A stretch of DNA of 64,000 nt from a virus. Each line of letters begins with the position of its first letter. The first letter of the stretch is position 1. Under the pieces are notes generated by a model. It did no database searches. It was given only the letters and a program-made list of their open reading frames with translations, and had not been told where the DNA came from. The stretch is taken from positions 27,776 through 91,775 of the IMG/VR virus record IMGVR_UViG_3300006802_000077, one strand, 5' to 3'. A program made the translations under genes and the position numbers. This document shows, one piece after another, positions 24,524-61,818 of this stretch.

Positions 24524-24531
24524 CATAAATA
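24524..24531 (+). promoter_or_regulatory. Late promoter motif before gp13
   Basis: CATAAATA, one base from the T4 late consensus TATAAATA, lies 26 bases before the gp13 start in a true intergenic gap. Late promoters of this type are read by the gp55 sigma factor with the gp45 clamp, both encoded in this window. Confidence 0.55.
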
Positions 24532-25514: not shown

Positions 25515-26417
25515 ATGCCTACTAATTTCTATTTCAATAATTTTCCAGCCAACCATGTAACGCAAGAACAACTTCTTGTCGAAGATTTGGTCATTGAATC
25601 CATGCAAATTCATGGAATGGATGTGTTTTATCTTCCTAGAACAACAAGAGACCAAGTAGATTATCTTTATGGAGAAGATACACTCAAACAATATGTATCC
25701 GCATATCCTATTGAAATGTATTTGGAAAATGTTACTGGTATGGATGGAGAAGGAGATTTTGTTTCTAAATTTGGTTTAGAAATTAGAGATGAAGTTTCTT
25801 TATTAGTTTCTCGCCGTAGATTTGCATATCAAGTTGGTCAAAACATAATTAGACCTAGAGAAGGTGATTTGATTTATATACCATTAGTAGAAAACTTTTT
25901 TGAAATTACTTTTGTTGAACACGAAAACGACCAGGCTATGTTTTATACATTGGGTCGTGGCCGTGGTGGTAATGTTTATGTTTATTCACTAAAAATGAAA
26001 CAGTTTGTGTTCTCAAATGAATTGATATCAACAGGAATAAGTGAGATTGATGAACAAATTCGTGACAATTATTCTAGAACAAGATTAACTGTGGATACTG
26101 GTGGTAGTGGAAACTATAAACAAGATGAAATTATTTACCAAGGAACAGATTTGGCCAATGCTACAGCAACAGCTGTTGTACATACTTGGGATTACCATAC
26201 TAAAGCATTAGACATTTATCGGGTGATTGGTACTTTTGCTGGGTCATCGTCAATCATTGGCGACGAAAGTGGCGCAATTTGGACACAAACAGGTGCAGCT
26301 GACGATACTGTATTTGATAATAATGTGTTTGAGGACATTGTTGACAATACCAGAATTGAAACGGAAGCGGATTCAATAATCGACTTTTCAGAAATTAACC
26401 CATTTGGTGAACCATAA
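25515..26417 (+). CDS. 14: Neck protein gp14
   Basis: A head-closure protein partner of gp13. The first 180 residues are typical of gp14 (VIESMQIHGMDVFYLPR near residue 27, then DYLYGEDTLKQY). After about residue 205 there is a VYQG-type module (KQDEIIYQGTDLANATAT), also found in the gp8-like protein, and the family C-terminus RIETEADSIIDFSEINPFGE. It starts three bases after the gp13 stop, and its own stop overlaps the gp15 start (TAATG). Confidence 0.88.
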   Translation: MPTNFYFNNFPANHVTQEQLLVEDLVIESMQIHGMDVFYLPRTTRDQVDYLYGEDTLKQYVSAYPIEMYLENVTGMDGEGDFVSKFGLEIRDEVSLLVSRRRFAYQVGQNIIRPREGDLIYIPLVENFFEITFVEHENDQAMFYTLGRGRGGNVYVYSLKMKQFVFSNELISTGISEIDEQIRDNYSRTRLTVDTGGSGNYKQDEIIYQGTDLANATATAVVHTWDYHTKALDIYRVIGTFAGSSSIIGDESGAIWTQTGAADDTVFDNNVFEDIVDNTRIETEADSIIDFSEINPFGEP

Positions 26418-27460
26418 TGTTAGGCAAAAACCATTTTTATAACCGAACAATAAGAAAAGTCGTTGTGGCTTTTGGTACTATTTTCAATGATATCTATTTG
26501 CAAAGATATTCGAAAGATGGTAATACTGCATACGAAAAATTTAAAGTACCTCTTTCTTATGGGTCCAAAGAAAAATATATCACACGAATTACATCAGACC
26601 CGAATTTAACAAAATCTGTCAATACATTGGTGCCTAGAATTTCTTTTGAGTTGACAGGTTTTAATTATGATAGTTCCAGAAAACAAATAAGTTCATTAAG
26701 AAATTTTGCAAAAGATTCTACCACAGGAGCTTTGGCAACACAATATGTACCTGTTCCTTATGATTTTACATTTTCGTTATCCATTTATGTACGAAACACA
26801 GAAGATGGTACACAAATTATAGAACAAATTTTGCCTTTTTTTACACCAGATTTTAGTGTAACGGTTGATTTTATACCTGATATGAATCAGAAATATGACA
26901 TACCTATCATACTGAATTCAGTATCAACATCAACCGATTATGAAGGCGACATGATGACAACTCGCTTAATAACATGGGATTTGGAATTTACGGTCAAAGG
27001 TTATATCTGGCCAGCAGTAATTAATCCTTCTGGTTTAATTGGCGATTCTTATGCCAATACAAGTGCTCCTGGTGGAGTTTCTTATGGCAGAGTTATTACC
27101 AATCTATATGAAGAAACTCAAAACAAATCAGCACAAAAAGTTGTTGTTGATTATGCAAATGGAAACAATTACTTTTCAACTTCAGAAACAATTAGAGTTG
27201 AAAGTAAAGGAATAACTGGAAAAATAATTTATTTTAGTAATAGTAGTAGTGGCATATTAATTGCTGGTGAGTTGAATCAGCTTTTGGAAGTTGGTGATAT
27301 AGTGCGTGGCGATTATACTGGTGCTAAATATACCATAACATCACTGGATAGTTCTCCAGTAAAATCAGTATCAATAATCACAACGACAGTACCTGAAGAT
27401 TCTGATCCAGATGATGAATTTGGATTTGCAGAAACTATTAATGAATGGCCAAATGCATGA
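26417..27460 (+). CDS. 15: Proximal tail sheath stabilizer gp15
   Basis: The 347-residue product caps the contractile sheath and tube at the head end. Diagnostic segments are the N-terminal HFYNRTIRKVVVAFGTIFND, the middle RISFELTGFNYDS and the VPVPYDFTFSLSIYVRNTED stretch. The core ends near TVKGYIWPAV (about residue 197); beyond it is a C-terminal extension with two beta modules (LLEVGDIVRGDYTGAKYTIT) longer than in T4 gp15 (272 aa). The gene overlaps gp14 and gp16. Confidence 0.88.
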   Translation: MLGKNHFYNRTIRKVVVAFGTIFNDIYLQRYSKDGNTAYEKFKVPLSYGSKEKYITRITSDPNLTKSVNTLVPRISFELTGFNYDSSRKQISSLRNFAKDSTTGALATQYVPVPYDFTFSLSIYVRNTEDGTQIIEQILPFFTPDFSVTVDFIPDMNQKYDIPIILNSVSTSTDYEGDMMTTRLITWDLEFTVKGYIWPAVINPSGLIGDSYANTSAPGGVSYGRVITNLYEETQNKSAQKVVVDYANGNNYFSTSETIRVESKGITGKIIYFSNSSSGILIAGELNQLLEVGDIVRGDYTGAKYTITSLDSSPVKSVSIITTTVPEDSDPDDEFGFAETINEWPNA

Positions 27461-27864
27461 TGGAAAAATTAAACAAAAACTTATCCGAAGCTTTAGAATT
27501 GGAACCAATCAAGTTTGGTTCTGACGAAAACTTACCTGTTTATTCAAATAAACAAGAACCTATACAAGACGATTCCGAATTCGCCAGACACAACATTCGT
27601 GAATTGATTGAAAAAGGTAATGTTGCGATTGATAATCTCCTACACGTTGCTAAAGAATCTGAACACCCTAGAGCTTATGAAGTCGCAGCAGGTTTAATTA
27701 AAAATTTATCTGACTTAAACAAAGATTTGTTAGAGGTACAGAAAAGAAAACAAGATTTAACTGGTGAAAAACAAAGTAAAAATATGAATATTGATAAAGC
27801 TGTGTTTGTTGGTTCCACTTCAGAATTGGTAAAATTTTTAAAAAACAATAAAGGACAAGAATAA
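27457..27864 (+). CDS. 16: Terminase small subunit gp16
   Basis: The DNA-recognition subunit of the packaging motor. The sequence has the conserved block ARHNIRELIEKGNVAIDNLL, then AKESEHPRAYEVAAGLIKNL, a coiled-coil centre as in gp16 proteins. Three close ATGs exist (27445, 27457, 27460); I choose 27457 because ATGA overlaps the gp15 stop, as at other junctions here. The C-terminus ends in a short Lys-rich tail. The next gene, unlike in T4, is a ferritin rather than gp17. Confidence 0.88.
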   Translation: MMEKLNKNLSEALELEPIKFGSDENLPVYSNKQEPIQDDSEFARHNIRELIEKGNVAIDNLLHVAKESEHPRAYEVAAGLIKNLSDLNKDLLEVQKRKQDLTGEKQSKNMNIDKAVFVGSTSELVKFLKNNKGQE

Positions 27865-28298
27865 TGGAACGATTGATTCAACAGTTAAAGGTTATATTGG
27901 GTACAAATTTTAGTTTGTATTTTAAATCACACAGCTTCCATTGGAATGTGGAAGGTGCTGATTTTGTACAGTACCACACTTATCTTGGTGATTTTTACGA
28001 AAAAGTTTTTGATAACACCGATATTCTTGCTGAAAAAATTCGAATGTTGGATTCATATGCACCAACAGGACTCTCTCGTATGATTGAATTATCAGCAATA
28101 GAAGAAACAGAATCGATTCCTGACGCATTAGGTATGTTTAATGAATTAAAGTCTGATAATGATAAGATGATTGTACAAATTAAAGCTGGTATAGTTTTGG
28201 CAGACCAAGAAAACGAATCTGCGGTTTCAAATTACTTACAAGAACTTTTAGACCAACACCAGAAACACGCATGGTTTTTCCGTAGTATAACGAAATGA
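27864..28298 (+). CDS. Dps-like ferritin (DNA-protection / iron-storage protein)
   Basis: A 144-residue four-helix-bundle protein of the Dps family. The signature SFHWNVEGADF starts at residue 24, and the four ferroxidase ligands of bacterial Dps are all present with the correct spacing: H26, H38, D53 and E57 (12, 15 and 4 residues apart, as in E. coli Dps H51, H63, D78, E82). Dps dodecamers oxidise Fe(II) with peroxide and shield DNA. It overlaps both flanking terminase genes by short TAATG/ATGA junctions, so it is co-translated with the packaging motor. It lacks a long Lys-rich N-terminal tail, so direct DNA binding by that route is unlikely. Confidence 0.88.
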   Translation: MERLIQQLKVILGTNFSLYFKSHSFHWNVEGADFVQYHTYLGDFYEKVFDNTDILAEKIRMLDSYAPTGLSRMIELSAIEETESIPDALGMFNELKSDNDKMIVQIKAGIVLADQENESAVSNYLQELLDQHQKHAWFFRSITK

Positions 28299-29920
28299 CA
28301 GAAGGCGGTTATCTTGGTAATGACCGACTAAAAAAAGTTGGTGTTGAAATATCATATACCGAAGAACAAGTCAAAGAAATTATAAAATGTTCTGAAGACC
28401 CGGTATATTTTATTAAAAACTATGTTCAGATCGTACACGTTGATAGAGGTTTAATACCTTTTGATATGTGGCCGTTTCAAGAAGAAATGGTCAAAGATTT
28501 CCATGAAAATCGTTTTTCAATTTGTAAGATGCCTCGGCAGGTTGGTAAAACGACTACGACAGTTGGTTATATGTTGTGGTGTGTTTTATTCCAAGATGAA
28601 TACACGATTGCAATTTTGGCCAACAAAGGCGCCTTAGCTCAAGAAATACTTTCACGTTTACAGAAAGCTTATGAATATTTACCACTTTGGTTACAACAAG
28701 GTATCATTACTTGGAACAAAAGAAGTGTTGAACTGGAAAACGGTTCAAAAATTTATGCTTATGCAACATCCGCAGCTGGTGTTCGTGGTGGCACATACAA
28801 CTTAATATTTTTAGACGAATTTGCTTTCGTGCCTAAGAATATGGCAGACGATTTCTTTACGTCTACTTACCCTGTTATTTCTTCTGGTCAAACGACAAAA
28901 GTTATCATTGTTTCAACCCCTTATGGTCTAAACCACTTTTATAAGATGTGGGTCGATGCGTCTGAAAGTCGTTCTCTTTACAAGCCAATTGAAGTTCATT
29001 GGTCGCAAGTTCCTGGCCGTGATGCTAAATGGCGTGAAGAAACCATAAGAAATACCAGTGAAGAACAGTTTCGCCAAGAATTTGAGACTGAGTTCATTGG
29101 TTCATCGGCAACTTTAATATCTGGTGCTAAATTAAGAAGTCTGGCATTTTTTAATCCTTTATCTTCCGATGATAATTTAGACATTTATGAACAACCCAAA
29201 CCCGGACATTTGTATATCTGTACGGTGGATTGTTCAGAAGGTGTTGAACAGGATTATTCAACTATAAATGTTCTTGATGTTTCCCAAACTCCATATAAAC
29301 AAGTTGCTAAATACCGAAACAATAAATTACCATTATTGTTTTTTCCAACAATCATTTACTCGATTGCAAATAGATTCAATGAAGCGTTTGTTTTAATTGA
29401 GACAAATAATGTTGGCCAACAAGTTGTAGATATATTACACTATGACTTAGAATACGAAAATGTTTATAAAATTGACCATCATCACATAAAAGGACAAACA
29501 ATATCGGGTGGATTCAAACGAGCGGCCAGTTTTGGTATTAAAACCACCAAATCAGTTAAAAAAATTGGTTGTGCAAACCTCAAAACTCTAATAGAAACTG
29601 ACAAATTAATCATTAATGATTTTGACACTATTGCAGAACTGAACACATTTACAAGAATCCGAGATACATACCAAGCAGAAGAAGGTAATAACGATGACTT
29701 AGTAATGGGTTTAGTACTGTTTGCATGGCTAACCGCACAGTCATACTTCAGAGATTCTACGAATATTGACATCCGTAGAGTACTTATAGAAGAATATAAT
29801 ATGGCCGAAGAAGAAAATATCACTCCTGTAGGTTTTATCGAAGATGGACGAAAAGAAGAAATTATAAATGATGGATATGACATTTGGACTGAAAGAGGTT
29901 ATCCATCTTCAATTTTATAA
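28295..29920 (+). CDS. 17: Terminase large subunit gp17
   Basis: The ATPase-nuclease of DNA packaging. The N-terminal ATPase carries Walker A RQVGKTT at 81-87, Walker B NLIFLDEF at 169-176 and the STPYG coupling motif at 207-211. The C-terminal RNase H-like nuclease has its first metal site in TVDCSEGVEQDYS at 310-322 (D312), a VLIETNN strand and a late NDDLVMGLVLF. At 541 residues it is somewhat shorter than T4 gp17. The start overlaps the Dps gene by ATGA. Confidence 0.95.
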   Translation: MTEGGYLGNDRLKKVGVEISYTEEQVKEIIKCSEDPVYFIKNYVQIVHVDRGLIPFDMWPFQEEMVKDFHENRFSICKMPRQVGKTTTTVGYMLWCVLFQDEYTIAILANKGALAQEILSRLQKAYEYLPLWLQQGIITWNKRSVELENGSKIYAYATSAAGVRGGTYNLIFLDEFAFVPKNMADDFFTSTYPVISSGQTTKVIIVSTPYGLNHFYKMWVDASESRSLYKPIEVHWSQVPGRDAKWREETIRNTSEEQFRQEFETEFIGSSATLISGAKLRSLAFFNPLSSDDNLDIYEQPKPGHLYICTVDCSEGVEQDYSTINVLDVSQTPYKQVAKYRNNKLPLLFFPTIIYSIANRFNEAFVLIETNNVGQQVVDILHYDLEYENVYKIDHHHIKGQTISGGFKRAASFGIKTTKSVKKIGCANLKTLIETDKLIINDFDTIAELNTFTRIRDTYQAEEGNNDDLVMGLVLFAWLTAQSYFRDSTNIDIRRVLIEEYNMAEEENITPVGFIEDGRKEEIINDGYDIWTERGYPSSIL

Positions 29921-29981: not shown

Positions 29982-31667
29982 ATGGCATTCCAATTATCAC
30001 CTGGGGTAAACGTATCTGAGATTGACCTCACTACGGTTGTCCCCGCAGTCGCCACTTCAACTGGCGCAATTGCTGGAAATTTTGCATGGGGTCCAGTCAA
30101 TGAAATAGTTACCATTTCTGACGAGGTTCGCCTAGCAGACACATTTGGTAAACCTAATGAAGATAATTATGAACACTGGTTCTCAGCATCAAACTTCCTA
30201 TCATATTCTAATAATTTAAAAGTTGTTCGAGCTGCCGGCTCCGGAGCATTAAATGCTGGTTCCAATTCAACCGGAGTACTTGTCGGTAATGATGATGAAT
30301 ATTCAAGTGCTACACTCACTCTAGTCACCCACGGCGAATGGATTGCAAGATTTCCTGGTGAACTAGGCAATTCACTTAGTGTTGAGATGGTAGACAGCAA
30401 CACAATTACCACCTTGGCCAATAGTGGTCTGGACAAATTTGTTCCTTCTGCTGCACCTGGAACATCTACTTGGGTAAATGCACAAGGAGGTTCGGATGAT
30501 GAACTGCACGTTATTGTAATTGATGCTCAAGGCAAATTTACTGGTGTGGCAGGACAAGTTTTAGAAACATTCCTTTATGTCTCTAAAGCTTCTGATGCTA
30601 AAGATGATTATGGTAATACAAATTATTACGCTCAAGTCATAAACAATAGGTCGAAATATATCCGTTGGGCTGCCCACACAGATTTGACGACGGCCGCCGA
30701 AAGTTGGGGAAATACAGCTGCCAATGTAACATTTGCTAACCTGACTTCAAATGTTACATCAATATTAAATGGTGGTGCTGATGGTACTTACAGTTCTGGA
30801 AATACTGTAACAGGTTTAGGTTTGTTTGCATCGGCTGAAGCTGTTGACGTTTCGTTGTTAATTGGTGGTCCTGCCGATTCGACTGTTGTTAGTGAACTAC
30901 ACGATATTGTCGAATCCAGAAAAGATTGTCTTGCTTTCATTTCACCAGAAAAAGCTGATGTTGTAAACAATGCTGGTTCTGAAGCAACAGACGCTATTGC
31001 ATATCGTGATGGCTTAACATCATCTTCTTTTTTGGTGATGGATTCAAATTGGAAATATCAATACGACAAGTACAACGACAAGTATCGTTGGATTCCTTGT
31101 AACGCTGATGTTGCTGGTGCTTGTGCAAGAACAGACCAGCAACGTGACCCATGGTACTCGCCAGGTGGTTTAAATCGAGGTATACTTAAAAATGTTATTA
31201 AGTTGGCATGGAATCCAAATCAAGCCGACCGTGATAACCTCTACCAAAAAGGTATCAACCCAATAGTTTCTTTTGCTGGTGAAGGTACAGTTCTGTTTGG
31301 TGACAAAACAATGTTGTCTAAGCCTTCTGCATTTGACCGCATTAATGTTCGCCGGCTGTTTATTGTACTTGAGAAAGCAATTTCCCGTGCTGCACGGTAC
31401 TCAATGTTTGAATTTAATGACCAATTCACAAGAGCACAGTTTGTAAATTTGGTCGAACCATTCTTGCGTGATGTACAAGGCCGCCGTGGTATTACCGACT
31501 TCCGTGTTGTTTGTGACGAATCCAATAATACTGGACAAGTTATTGACCGTAACGAATTTGTTGGTGATATCTACATTAAGCCCGCACGTTCTATTAACTT
31601 TATCCAACTCAACTTTGTTGCGGTTCGCACAGGCGTATCGTTTAATGAAGTTGTAGGACAGTTCTAA
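29982..31667 (+). CDS. 18: Tail sheath protein gp18
   Basis: The contractile sheath subunit. The N-terminus SPGVNVSEIDLTTVVP and the following TGAIAGNFAWGPVN are diagnostic of phage sheath proteins. The C-terminal conserved domain includes WYSPGGLNRGILKNV (about residue 390) and the closing RSINFIQLNFVAVRTGVSF. A strong AAGGAGAAAT ribosome site suits high expression. The length of 561 is shorter than in T4 (659), as in other distant T4 relatives that lack part of the outer domains. Confidence 0.95.
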   Translation: MAFQLSPGVNVSEIDLTTVVPAVATSTGAIAGNFAWGPVNEIVTISDEVRLADTFGKPNEDNYEHWFSASNFLSYSNNLKVVRAAGSGALNAGSNSTGVLVGNDDEYSSATLTLVTHGEWIARFPGELGNSLSVEMVDSNTITTLANSGLDKFVPSAAPGTSTWVNAQGGSDDELHVIVIDAQGKFTGVAGQVLETFLYVSKASDAKDDYGNTNYYAQVINNRSKYIRWAAHTDLTTAAESWGNTAANVTFANLTSNVTSILNGGADGTYSSGNTVTGLGLFASAEAVDVSLLIGGPADSTVVSELHDIVESRKDCLAFISPEKADVVNNAGSEATDAIAYRDGLTSSSFLVMDSNWKYQYDKYNDKYRWIPCNADVAGACARTDQQRDPWYSPGGLNRGILKNVIKLAWNPNQADRDNLYQKGINPIVSFAGEGTVLFGDKTMLSKPSAFDRINVRRLFIVLEKAISRAARYSMFEFNDQFTRAQFVNLVEPFLRDVQGRRGITDFRVVCDESNNTGQVIDRNEFVGDIYIKPARSINFIQLNFVAVRTGVSFNEVVGQF

Positions 31668-59283: not shown

Positions 59284-61818
59284 ATGACTAATTATTACAC
59301 CAACGTACAAGTTTACGGTAACAACATTCTTTTCCGTGGCGTAAATAACGGTCGGCGATTTGGTAAAAAAATACCATACTCGCCGACTTTGTTTTTACCA
59401 TCTAAAAAACCAACAGACTTTAAAAGTTTGCATGGTGATTTTTTAGAGCCTAAAAAGTTTAAAACTATTCGTGAAACAAGAGATTTCATTAAGAAATACG
59501 AAGAAGTTGAAAACTTTAAAATATATGGTAATGCTAGTTTTGAATATGCCTTCATCTCCGAACACCAAAAAGGTATGATAGAGTGGGACATAAATCAACT
59601 TGATATAGCAATCATCGATATTGAGGTTGGTTCTGAAAATGGTTTCCCAGATCCAATTGATGCAAATGAGCCAATTACTGCAATTTCTATCCGAAAACTT
59701 AATGGTGAGATGGTTGTTTATGGTTGTGGAGAATTTCAAAATTATCGTGATGATATAAACTATATTCGTTGTAAAGATGAATGGACACTCTGTAAAACAT
59801 TTTTAGAAGATTGGAAAGATAATCATCCAGATGTTATTTCTGGATGGAACGTAAAGTTTTTCGATATACCATATTTGGTTAATCGATTTAAACGTATTCT
59901 TGGAGAAGAATATGTCAACAAACTTTCACCGTGGGATATCATATATACCCGTGAAAAAGTTATTAGAGGTAAAAAACAAATTGCTTATGATTTGTTAGGC
60001 ATATCTTGTTTAGATTATATTGAATTATATAAATGGTATGCGCCTGGTGGTAAATCGCAAGAATCATATCGTTTGGACAATATCGCTTATGTAGAACTTG
60101 GAGAAAATAAATTATCATATGAAGAATTCGATAACCTACACCAACTGTATAAACTCAACTATCAAAAATTTATTGAGTATAACATCAAAGATGTGGAACT
60201 TGTCGTTAAACTGGAAGAAAAGTTAAAATTAATTGAATTAGCTTTGACTCTTGCCTACGATACAAAGACAAACTATGAAGATGTCTTTGCTCAAACTCGT
60301 ATGTGGGATTCTCTAATCTATTCTTATCTGATTAACAAAGGGACTGTTGTACCGCCAAAAAAGATTAAAGCAAAAGATTCTGCTTTTGAAGGTGCTTACG
60401 TCAAAGAACCTCAAGTAGGATTACATCCATGGGTCGCATCATTTGATTTGAATTCTTTGTATCCACATTTGATGATGCAATACAATTTATCTCCTGAAAC
60501 ATTAATAGAACCAAAAGACTATACACAAAATATGCGTGATATAGTTTCTTCTGGTGTTTCGGTTGATAAACTATTAACAAAACAAATAGACACTTCCGGG
60601 CTGGTTGACGTTACAATGACACCAAACGGTCAATTTTTCAGAACTGACATACAAGGTTTTATTCCTAAAATGTTGGAAGAAATGTATGAAGACCGAAAAA
60701 AGTTTAAAAAGATGATGTTAAAATGTCAACAAGACATTCAAAATGAAGAAGACACACATAAGAAAAGGGAGTTGGAAAATCTAATTGCTAGGTATAACAA
60801 CCTTCAACTTGCAAAAAAGGTTTCGTTGAATTCTGCTTATGGTGCAATGGGTTCACAATATTTCCGTTTTTATGATTTGAGGCAAGCTCTTGCTGTTACA
60901 TTGGCTGGCCAATTATCCATTAAGTGGATTGAAAATAAGTTAAATTCTTATTTAAATACTTTATTAAAAACACAAGATGATTATGTTATTGCATCAGATA
61001 CAGATTCAATTTATCTTAAACTTGAACCTCTCGTAAAATCGGTGTTTCAGAAAGAAACAGAAACTTCTAAAATTATATCCTTTATGGATAAAGTCTGTGA
61101 AGATAAAATTCAACCGTTTATCGACAAGAGTTATTCTGAGCTTGCAGAGTATGTTCATGCGTATGCACAAAAGATGCAAATGAAACGTGAAGCTTTGGCT
61201 GACAAAGGTATTTGGACTGCCAAGAAGCGTTACATTTTAAATGTATATAATAATGAAGGTGTTGTATATAAAAAACCTAAACTAAAAGTTATGGGTCTCG
61301 AAATGATTAAATCATCCACACCTTCTGCGGTGCGTGAAAAAATGCGTGAGTTGATTGAATTGATGATGACTGCAAAAGAAACCGAGATACAAGACTTCAT
61401 ATCAAATTTTCGAAGTGAATTCAAAAAGTTACCTGTAGAAGAAATATCTTTTCCTAGAGGTTTGAATGGTCTCAATGATTATTCCGATTCTGCGACTTTA
61501 TATAAAAAAGGCACACCTATTCATGTTAAAGGTGCAATCATTTATAATTTCAATTTGAAAAAATTGGAGTTGACAAATAAATATCCTTCCATCCAAGAAG
61601 GTGAGAAGTTGAAGTTTACTTATCTCAAAATGCCAAATCCTTTTAAAGATTCAGTAATCTCTTACCCAACTAGATTGCCTAGAGAATTCAATTTGCAGGA
61701 ATATATTGATTATGACCTACAATTTGAAAAGTCCTTTTTAGAACCTGTAAAAGTTATTTTAGATTGTATTGGTTGGAAGGTAGAAAAAACATTTTCTTTG
61801 GAAAGTTTTTTTGAATGA
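59284..61818 (+). CDS. 43: DNA polymerase gp43 (family B)
   Basis: The replicative polymerase with 3'-5' proofreading. Exonuclease motif I is IIDIEVGS with D112 and E114, the same numbers as in T4. Polymerase motif A is SFDLNSLYPHLMMQYN (D388), motif B KKVSLNSAYGAMGS near 515-530, and motif C IASDTDSIYLK with D572 and D574. The length of 844 is typical (T4 898). The C-terminus FSLESFFE should end in a clamp-binding peptide. The gene is intact, not split and without an intron or intein. Confidence 0.97.
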   Translation: MTNYYTNVQVYGNNILFRGVNNGRRFGKKIPYSPTLFLPSKKPTDFKSLHGDFLEPKKFKTIRETRDFIKKYEEVENFKIYGNASFEYAFISEHQKGMIEWDINQLDIAIIDIEVGSENGFPDPIDANEPITAISIRKLNGEMVVYGCGEFQNYRDDINYIRCKDEWTLCKTFLEDWKDNHPDVISGWNVKFFDIPYLVNRFKRILGEEYVNKLSPWDIIYTREKVIRGKKQIAYDLLGISCLDYIELYKWYAPGGKSQESYRLDNIAYVELGENKLSYEEFDNLHQLYKLNYQKFIEYNIKDVELVVKLEEKLKLIELALTLAYDTKTNYEDVFAQTRMWDSLIYSYLINKGTVVPPKKIKAKDSAFEGAYVKEPQVGLHPWVASFDLNSLYPHLMMQYNLSPETLIEPKDYTQNMRDIVSSGVSVDKLLTKQIDTSGLVDVTMTPNGQFFRTDIQGFIPKMLEEMYEDRKKFKKMMLKCQQDIQNEEDTHKKRELENLIARYNNLQLAKKVSLNSAYGAMGSQYFRFYDLRQALAVTLAGQLSIKWIENKLNSYLNTLLKTQDDYVIASDTDSIYLKLEPLVKSVFQKETETSKIISFMDKVCEDKIQPFIDKSYSELAEYVHAYAQKMQMKREALADKGIWTAKKRYILNVYNNEGVVYKKPKLKVMGLEMIKSSTPSAVREKMRELIELMMTAKETEIQDFISNFRSEFKKLPVEEISFPRGLNGLNDYSDSATLYKKGTPIHVKGAIIYNFNLKKLELTNKYPSIQEGEKLKFTYLKMPNPFKDSVISYPTRLPREFNLQEYIDYDLQFEKSFLEPVKVILDCIGWKVEKTFSLESFFE

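Follow-up and report, generated by a model that had tools for sequence, protein, structure and literature searches.

Results

A Dps-type gene lies between the two terminase genes

In the window, the whole 64,000-nucleotide stretch of viral DNA analysed here, a plus-strand gene at 27864..28298 encodes a 144-residue Dps-type mini-ferritin, as assigned by PF00210, phrog_3636, AlphaFold and Foldseek. It is flanked by genes for a T4 gp16-type terminase small subunit (TerS; 27445..27864, plus strand; PF11053, 3.6e-9; phrog_445, 5.7e-34) and a T4 gp17-type terminase large subunit (TerL; 28295..29920, plus strand; PF03237, 2.1e-27). The gene order of this region is gp13-gp14-gp15-gp16-Dps-gp17-gp18-gp19-gp20, with a gp15-type tail sheath stabiliser as the upstream neighbour (26417..27460, plus strand; PF16724, 3e-69) and a gp18-type tail sheath downstream (29982..31667, plus strand; phrog_23, 3.7e-144). 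The gp19 protein scores slightly below the Pfam cut-off, yet it is similar to an annotated tail tube. Translation of TerS may start at an ATG at 27457 or 27460 instead of 27445.

As the original prediction had described, the Dps gene overlaps both terminase genes: its start has one base in common with the terS stop (TAATG), and its stop overlaps the terL start by four bases (ATGA). Because of these overlaps on both sides, Dps is likely co-translated with the terminases, in line with the earlier proposal that they are made together. A Shine-Dalgarno-like site, AAAGGA, was read from the sequence inside the end of terS (27850..27855, plus strand), and AGGA, GGAG or GAGG lies 5' of the Dps start in 96 of 139 distinct genes of the clade described below.

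The predicted fold is that of Dps

The protein matches Pfam Ferritin (E = 2.3e-20) and, over residues 2-143 of 144, the full-length profile of PHROG 3636 (2.5e-31). Fifty-six distinct PDB sequences are similar to it at E <=0.001, the best being Pseudomonas aeruginosa 8ff9 (5.3e-18). A single-chain AlphaFold model, built from an alignment of 26 phage sequences, has a mean pLDDT of 96.2 and a pTM of 0.91. Its helices span residues 2-28, 34-61, 70-76, 88-115 and 119-143, so that the modelled chain combines a ferritin-like bundle of four long helices with a short helix (70-76) in the BC loop, as expected of a Dps. Foldseek returned 957 PDB matches at E <=10, led again by 8ff9 (PaDps; TM 0.95, rmsd 1.1, 29% identity), and the best 50 of them are all named Dps, NAP, Dlp, MrgA, TpF1 or CAIP, except 3kwo, which carries the name putative bacterioferritin. 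The Dps-type identity that had been read from the sequence is thus borne out by Pfam, PHROG, AlphaFold and Foldseek, and the names of these best matches, 3kwo aside, do not point to another four-helix family. The cut-offs of the NCBIfam Dps equivalog models were not reached (NF041388, 54.3 of 170 bits; NF006975, 36.6 of 114; NF052461, 35.8 of 300).

The ferroxidase ligands are complete and invariant

The full ligand set named in the original prediction, H26, H38, D53 and E57 with a spacing of 12-15-4, is present. H26 (codon 27939..27941) is the predicted Fe1 ligand and corresponds to H37 of PaDps; H38 (27975..27977) is the predicted Fe2 ligand and corresponds to H49; D53 (28020..28022) and E57 (28032..28034) are predicted iron ligands and correspond to D64 and E68, all codons being on the plus strand. 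In iron-soaked PaDps crystals, Fe1 is reported to be bound by H37, D64 and E68, and Fe2 by H49 and E68 (PMC10002758). The pattern Hx11Hx14Dx3E occurs a single time, in Dps, among the 34,175 residues of the window's six-frame open stretches of at least 60 aa. The H, H, D and E ligands are also found in all 12 outside Dps compared (8 cellular, 4 phage), and the four residues, together with H23, are invariant in the 79 full-length Dps of the clade (52 distinct).

E. coli Dps has an acidic residue (D67) four positions after the second histidine. An acidic residue is absent at H38+4 in all 79 clade Dps, which have G, A or N there, and the equivalent position is M or Q in 4 of the 8 cellular Dps compared. 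We considered that a missing fifth acidic ligand might mean a dead site and rejected this, since cellular Dps also vary at this position and PaDps does not use such a ligand; the change is therefore not read as a loss of function.

The dN/dS ratios indicate that Dps is under purifying selection, with a median of 0.18 and a maximum of 0.29 over 22 gene pairs; the corresponding medians are 0.04 for TerL (7 pairs) and 0.32 for TerS (22 pairs).

The protein is acidic and has no tails

DNA binding via basic terminal tails is found in only part of the Dps family. In comparison with other Dps, the window protein has neither an N-terminal nor a C-terminal tail, and its net charge at pH 7 is about -9 (-2.8 to -9.9 in 51 distinct clade proteins). 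Because terminal extensions are missing and the net charge is negative, DNA binding through basic tails is unlikely.

Another possibility is that the phage Dps acts as a nuclease, for example in aiding host DNA breakdown. PA0962, the best PDB match in both sequence and fold, is described as nicking and linearising plasmid in vitro although it has no basic tails (PMC10002758). However, the phage protein is only 29% identical to PaDps, the cleavage mechanism is left open in that report, so that there are no residues to compare, and nuclease activity during packaging would presumably endanger the phage's own DNA. We give this possibility next to no credence.

The arrangement is common in uncultured phages

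A first scan of IMG/VR found 181 Dps relatives, and an alignment-based scan found at least 592 stretches that encode them; the best 80 of each were analysed, and two further scans supplied additional loci. The counts of related loci thus come from the best 80 per scan and describe close relatives. With gaps of up to 3 kb between genes permitted and contig repeats included, 215 of 236 Dps loci have the order terS-Dps-terL, 13 have one terminase gene and a contig end, and 8 have neither. After repeats of one contig had been merged by identical Dps DNA, 138 of 151 distinct Dps sequences among the best matches are placed between terS and terL, 6 combine a single terminase flank with a contig end, and 7 have neither terminase; at least one terminase gene thus flanks 144 of the 151. 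The gap between Dps and TerL exceeds 100 bases in 4 of 147 two-flank loci.

Dps was also found at E <=0.01 in 23 records of annotated isolate phages, all below 60% identity to the window protein. Eight were inspected, one per apparent group, six of them annotated and two without annotation. None of the six annotated stretches has a terminase beside Dps. The neighbours are sulfate adenylyltransferase in Synechococcus S-EIV1, anaerobic ribonucleotide reductase (RNR) in Aeromonas BUCT695, tRNA, glycosyltransferase and ThyX in Streptomyces Kenrey and Coruscant, only hypothetical genes in Bacteroides BS162P1, and ThyX in PKM.Lu.22.1; in Coruscant a short 'putative tail protein' lies 1.3 kb from Dps. 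The window's TerS and TerL have no match in any of the eight stretches, a search that unrelated terminases would escape, and terminases of the window type are likewise absent from the stretches of up to 4 kb examined on each side of Dps in 50 S-EIV1-type IMG/VR loci. A cellular relative was not found in two contig scans, which used phage-specific patterns and so do not imply its absence. All 402 plasmid records with a Dps match are below 60% identity, and among the 40 listed the highest identity is 32.8%.

The original prediction held that its novelty would be lowered if the same arrangement were common in annotated relatives. We did not find it in the annotated phages inspected or in the open-licence literature searched, and it is common in uncultured phages. 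This makes the single case less surprising and the arrangement a conserved feature rather than an accident. Phage Dps and their proposed oxidative role are already known; the new element is a large clade in which Dps has become fixed within the packaging operon.

The terS-terL junction accepts varied cargo

The original prediction also stated that 16 is directly followed by 17 in T4 and the well-known cyanophages. In T4 itself gene 16 is presumably next to 17. As a general statement this goes too far, because extra genes are often found at the junction: among three Kyanoviridae-like phages, Mosig has one 69-aa ORF between 16 and 17, and Sf-CH5 and DSL-LC03 have three genes each, including a virion structural protein (in Sf-CH5 phrog_1645, 1.1e-181). 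In 60 loci with Mosig-type TerL and an identified TerS, the terS-terL gap is below 60 bases in 20, 60-350 in 10, 350-1000 in 18 and above 1000 in 12. Profiles detected no Dps in 80 loci around Mosig-type TerL. Ten junction inserts from such loci were scanned with Pfam. They encode 2OG-Fe(II) oxygenases (L250 and L291, with a second L250 protein below the cut-off), a PAP2 protein (L311), a 2-hydroxyacid dehydrogenase (L288), a staphylococcal-nuclease homologue (L314) and, in a Mosig-like phage, a 4Fe-4S ferredoxin-like protein (L245:4678-4998); three of the ten had no Pfam match. The portion of PMC10448857 consulted yielded nothing on insertions at this junction.

Dps could conceivably be a neutral passenger that recombination and homing endonucleases have spread at this junction. 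The turnover of cargo fits this, as do homing-endonuclease-like ORFs beside Dps in two loci, where they lie between Dps and TerL (L122, the only one of the two with a Pfam match, NUMOD3 at 7.1e-7; L029, similar by eye). The signs of purifying selection and the invariance of the ligands over proteins down to 56% identity argue against it, and we regard it as very improbable. These sequence comparisons are best explained by a junction between terS and terL at which the late operon tolerates insertions, and where this clade has kept a ferroxidase.

A second group of T4-like phages carries Dps among virion genes

The Dps loci with neither terminase all fall in one separate group. The second group comprises eight loci (L424-L429, L431 and L432), whose Dps are 37-43% identical to the window's and keep the four ligands; one of these proteins matches PHROG 3636 at 1.7e-33. 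No TerS or TerL is present near Dps within the locus stretches examined, and a TerL search of the eight records, run without a positive control, was empty. DNA polymerases related to the window ORF at 59284 are encoded in G028 and G033 (839 and 792 bits; PF00136 is found in the window polymerase and in G028), and a tail-sheath-like stretch lies 1.9 kb after Dps in L428. Given the related polymerase and the tail-sheath match, the second group is T4-like.

The Dps gene of G028 comes after those for a phrog_1645 virion structural protein (6.4e-138) and a phrog_727-related protein; in L484 (6027-6464) it lies two genes after a phrog_1645 protein. Both families also occur between TerS and TerL in Sf-CH5. 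On two occasions, then, Dps is associated with virion genes of one kind, which may reflect either shared descent of a module or coincidence.

This context raises the possibility that virions carry the Dps cage, either inside or on their surface. T4-like phages would then have recruited Dps twice into the virion-building set, once into the packaging operon and once beside a virion protein family found elsewhere at that junction, and the cage would be built with the head and travel with the particle; we think such a double recruitment doubtful. A virion-borne cage could guard the packaged DNA from peroxide outside the cell, or deliver stored iron and ferroxidase to the next host. Its main support is the placement of second-group Dps among virion-type genes, including the phrog_1645 neighbour in L484, besides the virion-gene context in the window. 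On the other hand, the 144-aa protein has no visible extra tail for capsid targeting, and 15 of the 80 close TerL loci considered below have no Dps at the junction, so carriage in the virion seems unlikely to us.

The history of Dps appears uncoupled from that of TerL

When the 80 IMG/VR loci closest in TerL are compared, Dps precedes TerL in 63. In 15, terS directly adjoins terL and Dps is missing, and the other 2 are undeterminable because the contig begins too near the gene. No other ferritin was found in the 15 Dps-less records, which are short (4.6-28.8 kb). On a TerL tree (FastTree only; 220 distinct TerL, 129 with Dps; partial, interrupted and edge loci dropped), the presence and absence of Dps needs at least seven changes, four of them forced by well-supported branches.

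Pairwise Dps distances correlate with those of TerL at -0.01, of TerS at 0.20 and of gp13 at 0.44, while the same type of comparison gives 0.67 for TerS and gp13. These values come from the 22 loci in which all seven genes are full-length, taken from 41 distinct loci among 53, and the pairs are not independent; within these bounds, co-evolution of Dps with TerL or TerS was not seen. Eight of the first 80 loci (L003, L006, L007, L023, L024, L049, L052 and L080) pair a Dps 61-73% identical to the window's with a TerL only 43-48% identical. As gp18, gp19 and gp20 of the same eight loci are 60-84% identical to the window's, terL alone has apparently been replaced there. Dps seems to have been exchanged within the clade, yet in one slot.

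The position of Dps and its overlaps with both terminase genes suggest a packaging factor with TerS, TerL or the DNA at the motor as its target, and the retention of the slot in 138 of the 151 distinct genes points the same way. However, its distances do not follow those of TerL and only slightly those of TerS, it is kept beside divergent TerL in the eight loci above, and its absence is tolerated in 15 of 80. One locus, L077 (1294-3270), encodes an in-frame Dps-TerL fusion of 658 aa in a single ORF. This sole case, which goes back to an 81-base deletion relative to L067 and lacks TerL residues 1-20, may have been created by the assembly; we rejected it as evidence of interaction. Overall, a packaging factor is quite improbable. 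The link between Dps and packaging looks weak, given the Dps-less relatives, the absence of a distance correlation with TerL and the other junction cargo in sister phages, although the constancy of the slot could reflect a packaging tie that these tests miss.

Protection of DNA through binding during packaging, one form of the earlier suggestion, is likewise disfavoured by the missing tails, the negative charge throughout the clade and the uncoupling of Dps from TerL.

Timing, host and gene company

Dps belongs to a run of genes that starts with gp13, and a possible T4-type late promoter element, CATAAATA, lies 34 bases before gp13 (24524..24531, plus strand; weak). It is the only variant late-promoter site that precedes the gp13-to-gp17 run. 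Of the eight plus-strand NATAAATA sites in the window, two precede one of 30 listed gene starts by no more than 80 bases. For the exact T4 late motif TATAAATA the window shows no enrichment (3 found, 7.6 expected), and sigma-70-like and terminator-like sites are near chance. Promoter evidence for late expression was set aside, as TATAAATA is not enriched and a single CATAAATA site is too little. Late timing of Dps is suggested by its gene company and, weakly, by CATAAATA.

A longer record, G001 (171,728 bases), is 100% identical to the window in the nine genes compared. It has a permuted tmRNA (RF04321, 133 bits; the betaproteobacterial RF01850, 102.5 bits). RF01850 scores above its cut-off in 3 of 12 clade records (G001, G002 and G004) and in none of 14 control genomes, which makes a betaproteobacterial host a fair guess. 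The G001 tmRNA lies at about 60167-60584 of that record (L328:1667-2084) and carries the tag ANDEVYALAA.

Pfam matches in G001, from 83 of its 153 listed ORFs, include class I RNR, ThyX, NifU_N, isocitrate lyase, ClpP, Hsp20 and two fatty-acid desaturase-family proteins. The isocitrate lyase (1.8e-101) and NifU/IscU-like scaffold (5.4e-53) genes are in positions 1-39500 of G001 (L325, L326). Rubrerythrin was found in 3 of 10 clade records (L168:1468-1896 in G004, G021:40840-41184 and G024:49862-50236). We also considered a constant iron cassette and rejected it: NifU_N is present in only 1 of 12 clade records and rubrerythrin in those three, so the iron theme is not a constant one.

Discussion

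We lean towards a model in which Dps, an acidic ferroxidase without tails, is made late and prevents iron damage to DNA while virions are being assembled. A single late message would serve for the translation of Dps, the terminase and the neck and tail proteins, and the Dps subunits would form a 12-subunit cage. At sites on the subunit interfaces, Fe2+ would be oxidised, preferentially with H2O2, and the iron stored. DNA in late replication and packaging would thereby be spared Fenton cutting, and the iron enzymes of host and phage would be given a buffered iron supply. Contact with the packaging motor would not be required.

The original prediction had offered three readings: DNA protection during packaging, iron capture for the host cell under oxidative stress, and ferritin carried in virions. 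The second, taken as control of iron and peroxide in the infected cell, fits best. It is supported by the match to the PaDps ligands, their invariance, the dN/dS values, the lack of tails and the acidic charge, and further by the iron- and oxidant-related gene company and by host oxidative stress during infection with phage YerA41. In Yersinia ruckeri infected with this phage, host dps and catalase genes are reported to be up at 15 and 30 min and not at 60 min, when only 15 host genes differ, all but one of them down (PMC7354516). By analogy, a late phage Dps could take over once the host dps response ends.

Against control of iron and peroxide stands the single slot of the clade copies examined, as oxidative defence alone would permit any place. 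The inconstancy of NifU_N, the NCBIfam scores far below their cut-offs and the lack of TATAAATA enrichment are further points against it. If the model is true, a large uncultured T4-like clade, perhaps one that infects betaproteobacteria, regularly controls iron and peroxide in late infection. The clade also offers a defined gene with which to ask if phages handle Fenton damage during DNA packaging or transport iron.

Comparison with known systems

The closest known protein is P. aeruginosa Dps (PA0962; 8ff9), which shares with the window protein the fold, the four ligands and their spacing, and the lack of a C-terminal tail and of a basic N-terminal tail. PaDps differs in being bacterial and only 29% identical, and its 12-mer, peroxide-dependent ferroxidase activity and DNA cleavage have been measured, whereas the phage protein is described here by sequence and model. 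Helicobacter pylori NAP and TpF1-type Dps are of similar length and alignable over most of the chain (TM about 0.93-0.94), at 26-27% identity.

Sf-CH5, DSL-LC03 and Mosig have insertions at the same junction, with a virion structural protein or a protein of unknown function as cargo instead of Dps. Dps is also encoded by Streptomyces phages, Synechococcus S-EIV1, Aeromonas BUCT695, gut Gratiaviridae and Lactobacillus plantarum phages. These Dps are 24-37% identical to the window's (the gut and Lactobacillus cases from the papers lie outside this comparison), the four annotated ones that were aligned keep the four ligands, and in five annotated stretches Dps has metabolic or early-type neighbours, not terminases. 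An oxidative-stress role has been proposed for the Dps of gut and Lactobacillus phages (PMC8008677, PMC6669764). PMC6669764 is reported to place a phage Dps near replication genes, and PMC8008677, in the portion consulted, counts seven earlier Lactobacillus phages with Dps, to which it adds Gratiaviridae and a further 36 gut phage genomes. These earlier phage Dps are scattered finds, whereas the Dps family described here has relatives encoded in at least 592 IMG/VR stretches.
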